A stretch of 64,000 nucleotides of DNA, taken from the NCBI RefSeq assembly GCF_000420165.1, contig NZ_ATUK01000012.1, positions 186,001-250,000 of the forward strand, given 5' to 3'. This DNA is from Thioalkalivibrio sp. AKL19 (lineage in GTDB: Bacteria; Pseudomonadota; Gammaproteobacteria; Ectothiorhodospirales; Ectothiorhodospiraceae). Under the pieces are notes generated by a model that saw only the letters and a program-made list of their open reading frames with translations, ran no database searches and was not told the DNA's origin. The first letter of the stretch is position 1; the number at the start of each line of letters is the position of its first letter. The translations under genes and the position numbers were made by a program. Of the stretch, positions 47,144 to 51,936 are shown piece by piece.

Positions 47144-48727
47144 TCAGGCCCGGACGCGCACGTTCACCATCATGTCGTTGTCCTCGTGCTCCAGATTATG
47201 ACAGTGGAACACGTAGAGCTGATCACCAGCGTAGTGATGGGTGAAGTCGATCGCGATGCGCACGGTCTCGCCCGGCCACAGCAGGACCGTGTCCTTCCAG
47301 CCCAGGTCCGCGACGGTCAGCCCTTCATCGTTCACGGCCTGTTCGCGTACGAAATCCGGGCCCCCGGAGCGTGACAGCACCTGGAACGAAAAGCCATGGA
47401 TATGCATCGGATGCGGCATGCTGCGGTCCGCATTGCGGATCGTCCAGACCTCCCGCGTATTGGCATCCACCTCGATCGGCACCCGGTCAGGAGCGTACGT
47501 CTCTCCGTTGATGCGCCACTGCATCGGCGCCATGTCCAGACGGATATCCCGCTGGCCGGCATCCGTCACGTCGATGGGCTCGATCCGCGACAAACGCTCG
47601 GGCACCTCGGCGGTGACCGCCTCGCCCTCGCGGACCACGAATTCGAGCAATGCGAGCGGATCGCCATCGTGCATGCCGCCACCCATCATGCGACCCATGC
47701 CGCCGCCCATGCCACGCCCCATCATTCCGCCGCCCATGCCGCCACCGGCCATCGGGTCGAATTCCATGCTGTGCAGCTCGACCCGGTCGCCTCCGGCAAA
47801 CGCGGCGAAGTCAACCAGGACCTCCAGGCGTTCGCCCGGCGACAGGAAGGCCTCGTGGGCCTCCCGGGGTGATTCCAGCAGACCCGCGTCCGTGCCGATC
47901 ACCTGGAACGGAACCGCCTCGCCGTCCGCCCGCAGTGCCAGGCGATAGATCCGGGCGGTGGAGCCGTTCAGCAGGCGCAGGCGATGCAGGCGCCGCGCCA
48001 CTTCATGGGTCGCCGACGGTGTCATGTTCACCAGCACCTCGTCGCCGAGATAGCCCATCATCCGCTGCATCGGGTTCGGCTGGTACACCAGATGGCCGAG
48101 CCGGTCGAAGCGCTTGTCCTGCAGTACCAGCGGCAGGTCGGTCGTGCCGAGTTCCAGCCCCAGCGCCTCGTTCAGCGCGTCGTTGTCGTCATCGCTCACC
48201 AGCAGGAAGCTCGCCAGCCCCTGGTGGGCCTGGCGCGCGGTCCGGTGATGGGCATGGGTGTGATACCAGTAGGTACCGCCACGGTTGGTCACCTTAAAGC
48301 GGTATTCGTACTGCTCACCGGGGTCGACCGTCTGCATCGGATGCCCGTCCACCCGGCCCGGAACATGCATGCCATGCCAGTGGATGATCGTGCCCTCGTC
48401 GAGCTGGTTGTCCAGGGTCACGTCCAGTTCATCGCCGGTGCGCAACAAGAGGATCGGATTCTGGTATTCATGGCCGTTCATCTGCGTCCGGTACCAGAGG
48501 AACGGGGTCTCCTCGCGCCCCGGCACCGGCAGCCACCCCTGCTCCGCGACCAGGGTGAACGGCTCGTTGGGTGCGAGCACCGCAAACGGGCCGTCCGCGC
48601 CGGGCAGAAACAGGGCATTGTCGAACCGGGGGGCAGACACCGCGTGGTTGAACAGGCTCCAGCCGCCGAATGTGGTGATCACGGGAAGTGCCACGGCCAG
48701 CCCCAGAAACTGACGTCGTTTCATCAT
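47144..48727 (-). CDS. Periplasmic multicopper oxidase (CueO/CopA type)
   Basis: 527-aa laccase-like enzyme, likely cuprous oxidase for copper detoxification. Tat signal KRRQFLGLA starts at residue 3. Copper ligand motifs are HWHGMH (116-121), HTHAHH (156-161), HPMHIHG and HCHNLEHED. A Met/Gly-rich loop at about 321-352 resembles the CueO substrate-copper site. Start ATGATG at 48727/48724 overlaps the stop of the ATPase gene by one base with GGAG upstream, so the two are co-translated. Confidence 0.92.
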   Translation of the reverse strand: MMKRRQFLGLAVALPVITTFGGWSLFNHAVSAPRFDNALFLPGADGPFAVLAPNEPFTLVAEQGWLPVPGREETPFLWYRTQMNGHEYQNPILLLRTGDELDVTLDNQLDEGTIIHWHGMHVPGRVDGHPMQTVDPGEQYEYRFKVTNRGGTYWYHTHAHHRTARQAHQGLASFLLVSDDDNDALNEALGLELGTTDLPLVLQDKRFDRLGHLVYQPNPMQRMMGYLGDEVLVNMTPSATHEVARRLHRLRLLNGSTARIYRLALRADGEAVPFQVIGTDAGLLESPREAHEAFLSPGERLEVLVDFAAFAGGDRVELHSMEFDPMAGGGMGGGMMGRGMGGGMGRMMGGGMHDGDPLALLEFVVREGEAVTAEVPERLSRIEPIDVTDAGQRDIRLDMAPMQWRINGETYAPDRVPIEVDANTREVWTIRNADRSMPHPMHIHGFSFQVLSRSGGPDFVREQAVNDEGLTVADLGWKDTVLLWPGETVRIAIDFTHHYAGDQLYVFHCHNLEHEDNDMMVNVRVRA

Positions 48728-51243
48728 TACTTTTCTCCAGTACGGGATGCCGGCATGCTCCGGCGCAGCAGAATGGAATTGCCGATCACCGACAGCGAGC
48801 TGGCGGTCATCGCGACCACACCGATCATCGGATGCAACAGACCGGCCGCGGCGATCGGGATCGCGGCGGAGTTGTAGCCCCAGGCCCAGAACAGGTTCTG
48901 CACGATCTTGCGGAAGGTCAGCCGCGACAGCTGGACGGCCTCGACGACCTTGGTCAGCTCCCCGCGCACCAGCGTCACGTCCGCGGCCTCGATCGCGACG
49001 TCGGCGCCGGCCCCGATCGCGATGCCGACGTTCGCCTGCTGCAGGGCCGGGGCGTCATTGATGCCGTCGCCGACCATTGCCACGTGCTCGCCGTACTCCT
49101 TTTGCAACTCGCGGATGGCCTCGACCTTGCCCTCCGGCAGCACCCCGGCGCGCACCTCGTCGATCCCTACCTGGGCGGCCACGGCATTCGCGGTGCGCTC
49201 GTTGTCGCCGGTGACCATCACGCAGCGGATGCCGAGATCATGCAGTTGTTCGATCGCGGCCTGCGACTCTTCCTTGAGCGTGTCGGCCACCGCGACAATG
49301 CCGGCCGCCTGGTCGCCGATGGCCACCAGCATCGCGGTCTTGCCGGCATCCTCCAGTTCCCGCAACGAACCCAGTAGAGACGACGGGTCCAGCCCCTGCT
49401 CCTCCAGTAGCCGCTGGCTGCCCACCAGCACCCGCTCGCCGTCCAGGTGGGCCTCCACTCCACGTGCGGTATGCGACTGGAACTGCTCGACCTCGGCGAC
49501 CTCCAGCTCCCTGTCGCGCGCCCCTTGCACGATGGCATCGGCCAGCGGGTGTGCGGAACCGGCCTCGACGGCCGCCGCCGCCCGCAGCACACGGGACTCG
49601 TCAAAGCCCTCGGCCGGGATGACATCGGTCAGCGCCGGCTTCCCCCGCGTGATAGTGCCGGTCTTGTCGAGCACGATCACCGCAATGTCCTTGAGCGTCT
49701 GGATCGCGGAGCCCGAGCGGATCAGCACGCCGCGCTCGGCCCCCATGCCGGACCCGACCATCAGCGCGGTGGGCGTGGCCAGCCCCAGCGCACAGGGGCA
49801 GGCAATGACCAGAACGGCGATCGCCGCCAGGATCGCCAGCACCAGCGGCGGGCGTTCGGAATCGACCCAGGGCAGGAAGCCCTCGCCCCAGATCAGGATC
49901 GGCTGCAGCGCCCCGGAGAACGCCAGCCAGGCCGCGAACGCGGCCAGCGCGATCACCAGCACCGCCGGCACGAAGCGTGCGGTGATGCGGTCCGCCAGTT
50001 CCTGCACCGGCACGCGCGAGCCCTGCGCCTCGTTCACCAGGCGAATCACCTGCGACAGGAAGGTATCGGCCCCGACGCGGGTCGCACGCACCTTCAGCCG
50101 CCCCTGCTGGTTCAGGGTCGCGCCGAGCACGGTGTCGCCCTCGCCCTTGTCCACCGGGACCGACTCGCCGGTGGCAATGGACTCGTCCACGGTGCTTTCG
50201 CCGGCCACCACCTCGCCATCGGTCGGCACCTTCTCGCCCGGGCGCACGATCATCACGTCGCCCACCTGGAGCGACTTGACCGACACCTCGACCTCCTCGC
50301 CATCACGCTCGACCCGGGCGGTCTTCGCACCCAGGTCCAGCAACTTGCGGATCGCCGAGGAGGCCTCGCCCTTCGCGCGATACTCCAGATAGCGCCCGAG
50401 CATATGGAAGGCCATGATGGTCGCGGCCATCTCGATGAACGAGGTCATCGGATAGACGAAACCGACCAGCCCGATCAGGTAGGGTGGCAGCGAGCCCATG
50501 GAGATCAGCACGTCCATGTTCAGATTGCCGCTCTTCAGCGAACGCCAGGCGGAACGATGCGTGGCCGCGCCTCCCGCGAGGAACACCACCGGGAAGGCCA
50601 GCAACGCAATGATCAGCAGATAGCCGGGGATCGGCTGCCAGAACATGTGCGGCATCATCAGGACCATGATCGCGATGGTCGGCACCATCGCGAACCACAG
50701 ACGGTTCCAGGCCTGCTTCACGTAGGCGGCGTCGATCGCCGCGTCGTCCGCCTCGCTGGCGGCATCGTCGGTCTCCACCGCCGCCACGTCATAGCCGGCC
50801 CCCTCCACTGCCGCTCGCAGGACCTCGCCATCGGGCCCGTCCGCCGCCACCTCCACTGTGACCCGATGGTCGGAGATGTTGGTGCGTATGGATTCGATCC
50901 CGTCGAGCTTCTCGATCGCCGCGCGCACGATGCCGGCGCAGTGATCCGAGCCCATGCCCGGCACCACCAGCCGCACCGAACCGGAACCCCCGGCCTCGCC
51001 CTCGACCTGCGCGACGTCGTAGCCGGCGCCCTCCACCGCGGCGCGCAGGCCCTGCGGGTCGACCTGGTCGGGGTCATACCCCACCGTCACCCGGTGCCGG
51101 GCGATATTGGTCCCCACCGAGGTCACCCCCGGGGTCTTTTCCAGCGCCGCGCGCACGATGCCCCCGCAGTGGTCCGATCCCATTCCGGGGACGATGACCA
51201 CCGCCTCGCGTGCGGTCGCCGGCTTCGTTTCTGACGTCGTCAT
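48727..51243 (-). CDS. copA: Copper-exporting P1B-type ATPase with two unusual HMA domains
   Basis: 838-aa inner-membrane Cu(+) pump. The core is canonical: membrane CPC motif (ACPCALG), phosphorylation DKTGT, a TGD motif in VMVTGDN and GDGINDAP. Two N-terminal heavy-metal domains both read GMGSDHC (residues 20-26 and 96-102), where the usual GMxCxxC has lost its first cysteine to serine. Metal binding by these domains is therefore changed. Co-transcribed with the multicopper oxidase downstream and a small membrane protein further downstream in origin of reading (upstream gene at 51255). Confidence 0.94.
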
Positions 51244-51254
51244 CGCGTGACTCC

Positions 51255-51386
51255 TTACCGGCCACCGAACAGATACTTGATCAGCGCGGCGATCGCGAGG
51301 ATCAGCAGTACCAGGACCAGAAGCCCGATCAGGCCTCCGCCCAGACCCATACCGCCCATCCAGCCAAAACCTTGTTCATTCATCAT
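51255..51386 (-). CDS. Tiny Gly/Met-rich membrane protein in the copper block
   Basis: 43-aa protein: a Met/Gly-rich start ([14 protein letters not shown]), one hydrophobic segment (about 20-38) and a short basic end YLFGGR. GGGAGG stands eight bases before the ATG. It lies directly ahead of copA (11 bases) in the same direction. Met-rich small membrane proteins often accompany copper genes, so copper association is likely but unproven. Confidence 0.75.
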
Positions 51387-51495: not shown

Positions 51496-51840
51496 TCAGA
51501 GAGGGGGGCGCAGGTCCGGACCCGCGCGGGCATCGGGGGCCATGGCCACGACACCCGGAACGGGACTGGAGGGTTCGGCGGTGACCGGCAGGGCCCCGCT
51601 GGAGGGCAGGGCCGAAACCGCGCAGATGCCACAAACCGCGCACGGCATCTCGCAGGTCGAGGCTTCGACCTGGATCGCGGGAGCGTCCGAATGCGGGCCA
51701 GCGCCCTGCTCCGGACAGTGGCCCTGCGCGGCCATTTCCGGTCCGGGGTGCCCGTGCAACATCCCCGCACTGGCCACCGGCGCCGCGAGCAGCGCGGCGG
51801 CGATCAGCAGGGTCAGCAGGTGGTGCAGGGTTCGCGACAC
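51496..51840 (-). CDS. Small exported Cys/His/Met-containing protein, possibly CopL-like
   Basis: 114-aa protein with a signal peptide ending PVASAG near residue 26. Mature part has MLHGHPGPEM, GHCPEQ, STCEMPCAVCGIC motifs, suggesting metal (copper) binding, similar in layout to CopL/DUF2946-type proteins. GTG start at 51840 has GAGG seven bases upstream. The frame is open to an ATG at 51900, which would add 20 residues ahead of the signal. Family assignment is tentative. Confidence 0.65.
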   Translation of the reverse strand: MSRTLHHLLTLLIAAALLAAPVASAGMLHGHPGPEMAAQGHCPEQGAGPHSDAPAIQVEASTCEMPCAVCGICAVSALPSSGALPVTAEPSSPVPGVVAMAPDARAGPDLRPPL

Positions 51841-51936
51841 GGACAGGCCTCGAAAACGTATTCCGGGTACAAGTCTAGCACTGACGTTCGCTGGCCACAT
51901 GACACCGATAAAGTCACGTGGTTACCGCCCGGAACG

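Follow-up and report, generated by a model that had tools for sequence, protein, structure and literature searches.

We analyzed a stretch of 64,000 nucleotides from Thioalkalivibrio sp. AKL19 (contig NZ_ATUK01000012.1, positions 186,001 to 250,000; hereafter the window), which carries on its reverse strand the gene of an 838-residue P1B-1 Cu+-type ATPase, CopA (48727 to 51243). The pump has two N-terminal heavy-metal-associated (HMA) domains in which Ser replaces the first Cys of the CxxC motif. We call pumps and HMA domains with this replacement S-type, and those with GMxCxxC C-type. As read from the sequences, Ser for the first Cys, a His before the remaining Cys and a fixed His in the β2-β3 hairpin form a set that is constant in the members read. 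With moderate confidence, we interpret S-type CopA as a Cu+-exporting P1B-1 ATPase whose HMA domains would be mixed Cys/His regulatory copper sites, and the S-type HMA domain probably works as an alternative copper site and is not a damaged one. The fixed hairpin His of S-type domains is new; queries with GMGSDHC, with SXXC and copper ATPase terms, and with SXHC-type strings found nothing on the subject among the matches listed in the literature searched, outside which most subscription papers lie.

Both HMA domains of the window CopA read GMGSDHC, as the original prediction had it, at residues 20 to 26 (51166 to 51186, minus strand, as are all features of the pump) and 96 to 102 (50938 to 50958). 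Neither contains the two-cysteine CxxC motif, the corresponding residues being SDHC. HMA1 extends from 51016 to 51201 (Pfam residues 15 to 76) and carries the hairpin residue His50, and HMA2 extends from 50782 to 50976 (approximately residues 90 to 154; TIGR00003 stretch 91 to 154) and carries His126. Both are matched by the Pfam HMA family, PF00403, in two stretches (88.8 bits, cut-off 24.8). The only cysteines of the protein are at positions 26, 102, 482, 484 and 674; within residues 1 to 165 there are only Cys26 and Cys102, and the only histidines there are His25, His50, His101 and His126. The membrane CPC site at residues 482 to 484 is intact, as also predicted, within the transmembrane metal site CPCx6P (residues 482 to 491; 49771 to 49800). 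Back-translated GMGSDHC occurs at two places in the 2.88-Mb genome (18 contigs, 99.9% complete), both of them in copA, and a reversed-pattern control gave none.

For a search of 47 genomes from the order, we used the ATPase core by itself as the query (residue 161 onward; E ≤ 1e-140, all candidates scored but one). As this query is free of HMA sequence, the HMA domains could not bias the search. It yielded 20 pumps at 71 to 100% core identity and 27 at 47 to 50%, with nothing in between. All 20 close pumps (≥71% identity) have GMGSDHC twice, whereas the distant ones have GMxCxxC in 27 of 27 cases and GMGSDHC in none. Both kinds of pump occur together in 6 of the 20 S-type genomes, and each of the 40 S-type domains of the order lies within a frame of 838 to 893 residues. 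Sequencing error, which the original prediction had named as a possible refutation, is ruled out because an HMA-free query found the double motif in all 20 close pumps.

A sample of 398 genomes spread evenly over the phylum gave core scores above 700 bits in the window's genome (1445) and in one other, G442 (1009), only; the next score was 686 bits, for a pump with the motif GMHCASC. Two candidates were scored per genome in that sample, so that a third pump could be missed. We take the family of G442 to be Halomonadaceae, judging from its named relatives Halomonas, Billgrantia and Vreelandella. A core search of this family, with at most seven candidates scored per genome so that an eighth pump could be missed, found 33 pumps at 67 to 73% core identity in 28 of 151 genomes, and all 40 domains from 30 of the 33 pump loci read [GS]MGS[DEN]HC. 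Judged by the length of their frames, 19 of these pumps carry a single HMA domain (769 to 813 residues) and the other 14 carry two (849 to 923 residues). HMA1 as a similarity query against the same 151 genomes returned 47 domains at E values from 9e-21 to 1.7e-16, followed by a gap to 1.3e-7. Among the 30 loci that this query returned, 28 are S-type, all with [GS]MGS[DEN]HC, and two are canonical, both below the gap. The frame lengths imply 19 + 28 = 47 HMA domains, so all strong matches of the family lie in pumps and none is free-standing.

The claim of conservation rests on these core-selected sets of the order and the G442 family and on the domain-similarity search. The ratio of nonsynonymous to synonymous substitution rates (dN/dS) of the HMA region is 0.11 to 0.39 in seven pairs. 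Together with the 20 of 20 pumps of the order and the 40 of 40 domains of the G442 family, this rules out decay, and the preference of the original prediction for conserved function over decay holds. The loop Ser is encoded by TCN in 113 and by AGY in 73 of 186 DNA copies, a set that was picked by the loop motif with a Ser codon required and is informative on the codon mix only. The use of both codon types is the pattern expected if selection keeps Ser itself.

We compared the hairpin residue (the His of TNIAxHxV) between S-type domains and 90 canonical domains taken from CopA pumps only, chaperones being left out. The domain pattern required a Met, allowed Ser or Cys in place of the first cysteine and fixed the second as Cys; the hairpin residue was left free. 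That residue is His in 146 of 147 different S-type domains versus 1 of 90 canonical ones, in which the column mostly holds Glu (59%) or Gly (28%). The residue before the last Cys is His in 147 of 147 S-type versus 0 of 90 canonical domains. With domain sets selected by the core (39 of 40 domains of the order and 40 of 41 expected ones of the G442 family, from 30 of 33 loci, which the pattern split into 20 with one domain and 10 with two, against 19 and 11 by frame length), the hairpin His is present in 79 of 79 S-type domains versus 1 of 42 canonical ones. The hairpin codon, which lies outside the selection pattern, is CAC or CAT in 186 of 186 DNA copies. In 97 S-type N-termini, all from two- and three-domain pumps, 96 have one Cys per domain (95 with two domains and two Cys, one with three of each) and the remaining one has an extra Cys; their mean number of His per domain is two or more. 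The original prediction had proposed Ser/His/Cys or Met/His/Cys ligation and thus missed His50 and His126, which track the variant. Conservation of the Met carries no information on this point, since the residue is shared with the canonical motif and was preset by the search patterns.

The S-type pumps have a single origin. In a tree of ATPase cores from 138 pumps (78 S-type, 60 C-type), all S-type pumps lie beyond one branch with a Shimodaira-Hasegawa-like approximate likelihood ratio (SH-aLRT) support of 100, requiring one change of state; this was a quick LG+G4 search with long-branch warnings among the C-type rows, and the 157 pumps had been reduced to 140 rows by dropping identical or short cores and to 138 by dropping two near-copies. 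Among named rows, the nearest to the window pump are Thioalkalivibrio versutus AL 2 and its neighbors. The nearest rows outside the S-type clade are two pumps from haloarchaeal plasmids (Natronorubrum and Natrarchaeobaculum) and that of genome G054, with a support of 87 for the join. The haloarchaeal pumps resemble the S-type ones in their position near the clade and their 47 to 50% identity but differ in their motifs, GMSCATC and GMSCTTC. The G054 pump, a CopA relative of 693 residues, has GMHCASC once, with the membrane part following almost directly, so that it hardly has a full HMA domain.

The original prediction had counted the same change in both domains as support in its own right, which does not hold. 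A tree of 108 individual domains, built after masking of the seven motif columns (62 columns, the hairpin column and the flanking Pro left unmasked), groups S-type HMA1, HMA2 and single HMA domains together (100/100), separately from canonical HMA1 and HMA2. The change in both copies therefore counts as one event, inherited once, and the tandem S-type domains would have arisen by duplication of an already altered domain or have been homogenized.

The class of the pump is indicated by its membrane signatures. CPCx6P in transmembrane segment 6 (residue 482 in the window CopA) and Nx6YNx4P (residue 783) occur in 96 of 96 S-type proteins, and Px6MxxSS (residue 805) occurs in 95 of 96, the script pattern for the last ending in x3-5 N where PMC5924815, in its accessible part, writes x5 S. 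The same part of that paper gives these three as the signatures of P1B-1 ATPases. The ATPase motifs of the window CopA are complete as well. The window CopA scores above the cut-offs of TIGR01525 (624.5 bits versus 346.25) and TIGR01511 (551.5 versus 397), and also, at a lower score, above that of the Cd subfamily TIGR01512 (401.5 versus 313.5). It falls below those of the E. coli-type CopA equivalog PRK10671 (572.1 versus 1316) and of the ZntA-type Zn/Cd equivalogs NF033775 (397.6 versus 1240) and PRK11033 (441.8 versus 1005). It is not a CopZ either, as its HMA domains sit in an 838-residue ATPase and the whole protein scores 83.4 versus 91 with NF033795. No S-type-specific family was found among the Pfam matches or the best 25 of 38 NCBIfam families. 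The best PDB sequence match is Archaeoglobus CopA (3j09; E 9.5e-167). The window pump thus resembles canonical CopA (TIGR01511/TIGR01525; 3j09) in its ATPase core and in the CPC, YN and MxxSS signatures, and differs from it by GMGSDHC and the hairpin His in place of GMxCxxC, with a core 47 to 50% identical to the C-type pumps of the order.

Both S-type HMA domains are predicted to adopt a ferredoxin-like fold. The HMA model has a mean predicted local distance difference test (pLDDT) score of 82, with strands at positions 29 to 35 and 40 to 45 flanking the hairpin and the His at model position 39. Its nearest solved chains are copper HMA domains and CopZ proteins, the best being 3dxs (Z 14.2); the likeness to CopZ/Atx1 proteins lies in the fold (6ff2, Z 13.2; 2qif, Z 13.0; 2xmv, Z 11.2). 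In the ferredoxin-like fold, the β1-α1 loop, the β2-β3 hairpin and the α2-β4 loop share one end, which would put the hairpin His at the metal-site end.

Two ATPases of the window's genome score above the TIGR01525 cut-off, CopA and a FixI-like one with the motif GITCAAC, which leaves the variant pump as the sole CopA-type exporter that we found there. HMA-like stretches also occur in a small protein of this genome with IKCGGC, which we infer to be a candidate chaperone, and in a 99-residue protein (G000:C10:344425-344604, G000 being the window's genome) that lacks the motif and has no cysteine in its HMA part. The original prediction had raised the idea that CopZ-like chaperones might share the variant motif. 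We found none in the window's genome and no free-standing S-type chaperone in 198 genomes (47 of the order and 151 of the G442 family), making a like-for-like partner unlikely there.

If the S-type HMA domains are mixed Cys/His sites, Cu+ would be bound by the Cys with one or both His. The site could then work as a copper sensor, a rise in cytosolic Cu+ releasing the autoinhibition of the pump, and would not be an acceptor that hands Cu+ on via two thiolates. The pump would deliver Cu+ into the periplasm, and the multicopper oxidase encoded next to it could oxidize the ion there. A sensing role is supported by analogy with LpCopA. According to the accessible part of PMC11970713, the N-terminal domain of LpCopA binds Ag+ by only the second Cys of its CXXC and two Met and is a proposed sensor; its AXXA and SXXS forms are approximately 70% less active, and the domain would, by that proposal, relieve autoinhibition. 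The two systems would be alike in binding by a single motif Cys and in a copper-sensing domain that relieves autoinhibition, but, as far as that part goes, the LpCopA domain is folded differently and uses two Met as ligands, whereas the S-type domain has the HMA fold with His.

Several points weigh against this interpretation. Mutating or deleting the domains of AfCopA reportedly leaves its activity unchanged (cited in the accessible part of PMC11970713), and so the S-type site might be dispensable. The canonical CopA beside the S-type pump in 6 of the 20 genomes of the order means that the latter may have a narrower job. Because a single origin links Ser, His, the Pro before GM, Gly, Asp and the Glu of column 73, their co-occurrence is no proof that the His are ligands. 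Finally, a His next to the second Cys is nothing special among HMA proteins at large: free-standing domains of the GMTCxHC type, eight genuine ones of which we compared, are common among the matches listed for the broad G-M-x-S-x-H-C pattern. What marks the S-type is therefore just the loss of the first Cys together with the His of the hairpin. Like S-type domains, these GMTCxHC chaperones have the neighboring His, but CopZ/Atx1 proteins are free-standing and have CxxC, and none of the eight has His at the hairpin column: four were aligned by script (Lys, Lys, Ser and Gly) and four by eye, one of the latter having a His one place earlier. His61 of Synechocystis Atx1, a residue of loop 5, lies in another loop than the S-type hairpin. 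It belongs to a hydrogen-bond network at a metal-bridged dimer interface (PMC3763678, accessible part).

More tentatively, a Cys/His/His center made of the loop Cys, the neighboring His and the hairpin His might constitute a separate copper-regulatory class, one that replaced CxxC once and spread with the pump through haloalkaliphilic and marine bacteria, its lone-thiolate sensor gating Cu+ export without a matching dithiol hand-over. We regard this fuller version as possible rather than probable.

It is unlikely that the S-type HMA domain has instead given up metal for a protein-docking or structural role, its conserved Ser, Asp, His and Cys stabilizing the loop or a contact surface with the ATPase core. 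In favor of this view, CxxC has lost its first Cys, protein-binding HMA folds exist (chains of rice effector-binding HMA domains are among the structural neighbors), and Pro, Gly and Asp near the motif are almost as constant as Cys and His, if partly preset by the scan patterns. Yet one Cys per domain is kept in 96 of 97 N-termini, with a mean of at least two His per domain, and the hairpin His, which no pattern preset, is present in all 79 core-selected S-type domains at a position mostly held by Glu or Gly in canonical ones. Less likely still, the lone Cys might find its partner Cys in the neighboring HMA domain, in a chaperone or in another pump, Cu+ being bridged by two thiolates with the His as helpers. 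The window pump has two tandem domains with one Cys each, and canonical Atx1/HMA domains form metal-bridged dimers via CxxC (PMC3763678, in the part accessible). However, 19 of the 33 pumps of the G442 family have a single HMA domain by frame length, and those read keep the motif; nor was an S-type chaperone partner found in the 198 genomes. Sensing of Zn2+, Cu2+ or the pH or redox state by a mixed N/S site that so gates a copper pump is quite improbable: Cys/His sites commonly bind Zn2+, and many carrier titles name alkaline or saline habitats, in which His would be deprotonated, but the membrane signatures are of the Cu+ type and the neighbors are copper genes. That a single lineage lost the Cys through relaxed selection or neutrally, with no function, or that the sequence is in error, would agree with the single origin but is very hard to reconcile with a motif that all 20 close pumps of the order and all 40 domains read in the G442 family keep, at a dN/dS of 0.11 to 0.39.

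S-type pumps range over Gamma- and Alphaproteobacteria and a few metagenome-assembled genomes (MAGs) named for two other phyla. A peptide-pattern scan of 84,980 species genomes matched 256 stretches, 211 of which encode a relative, and the best 80 loci were taken; the patterns, [IA]VPGMGSD and VPGMGSDH, preset Pro, Gly, Met, Ser, Asp and partly His in those loci. Twelve of the 80 are from Thioalkalivibrio by name. Other carriers are Aquisalimonas, many Halomonas-like species, Alcanivorax, Marinobacter, Rheinheimera and Methylophaga lonarensis, the alphaproteobacteria Roseinatronobacter, Natronohydrobacter and others, and, with binning unchecked, one MAG each named Trueperaceae, Desulfobacteraceae, Desulfonatronospira and Desulfonatronovibrio. 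Many carrier record titles refer to soda-lake or halophilic organisms, the habitat being taken from titles alone. Outside these groups, the S-type pump looks rare, judging from the even sample of 398 genomes with two candidates scored in each.

The search for G-M-x-S-x-H-C suggested in the original prediction recovered the true motif pair in G000, G223 and G019 only among the matches listed, and the pattern is too broad for a census: it matched 241 of 369 genomes of the class, partly since the degenerate codon also covers those of Cys and Thr. Among the unusual Ser matches (GMESDHC, GMRSDHC, GMGSAHC, GMMSGHC, GMPSSHC, GMRSRHC and GMFSTHC), none of those inspected lies in an HMA domain. A plasmid origin was discarded as far as PLSDB shows, with 24 records matching the tandem HMA region (E 1e-10), the best at 38% identity. 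The pump of Halomonas sp. Y3 (L083, frame from approximately 5836) has three S-type HMA domains. Two S-type pump frames, L124 (497 residues) and L128 (192 residues), end early within their contigs and are probably frameshifted or broken.

S-type pump loci have a copper setting. Directly downstream of copA in the window, and sharing one base with its end, is the gene of a CueO-like multicopper oxidase (47144 to 48727, minus strand; Pfam Cu-oxidase_2 and Cu-oxidase_3) with an insert formed by a long Met/Gly repeat; with the CueO model PRK10965 it scores 301 bits, well below the cut-off of 525. On the other side, an open reading frame (ORF) for a 43-residue Met/Gly-rich, one-helix peptide with one hydrophobic stretch (51255 to 51386, minus strand; no Pfam match) ends 11 bases before the copA start. 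Farther upstream of copA, a 134-residue ORF (51496 to 51900, minus strand; no Pfam or NCBIfam match) has a signal-like N-terminus and Cys/His/Met clusters; its product is probably secreted, and it is perhaps the first gene of the copA operon. Over 82 loci, the neighbor clusters include multicopper oxidase (21), Metal_resist/LTXXQ (17), DUF411 (14), DUF2933 (14), a MerR-type regulator (8) and the efflux parts CusB-like (6) and OEP-like (5), cluster identity being taken from one representative each. These counts are rough, because several other clusters are antisense ORF-calling artifacts and contig ends truncate many of the loci. Elsewhere in the window, nested inverted repeats with one center (45524-45613/46112-46201, 90 nucleotides, 88%; 45662-45714/45989-46041, 53 nucleotides, 98%; 45443-45472/46253-46282, 30 nucleotides, 80%) may be a small non-coding or miniature inverted-repeat transposable element (MITE)-like element at 45.4 to 46.3 kb.

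According to the accessible part of PMC11970713, it is still debated whether copper ATPases use their N-terminal domains for copper delivery or for control of the pump. Searches based on CxxC would miss a class of HMA domains such as the one described here. A natural clade with one thiolate and two imidazoles in place of a dithiol would be a ready-made test of the two roles, as hand-over from a CxxC chaperone should suffer while sensing can persist.

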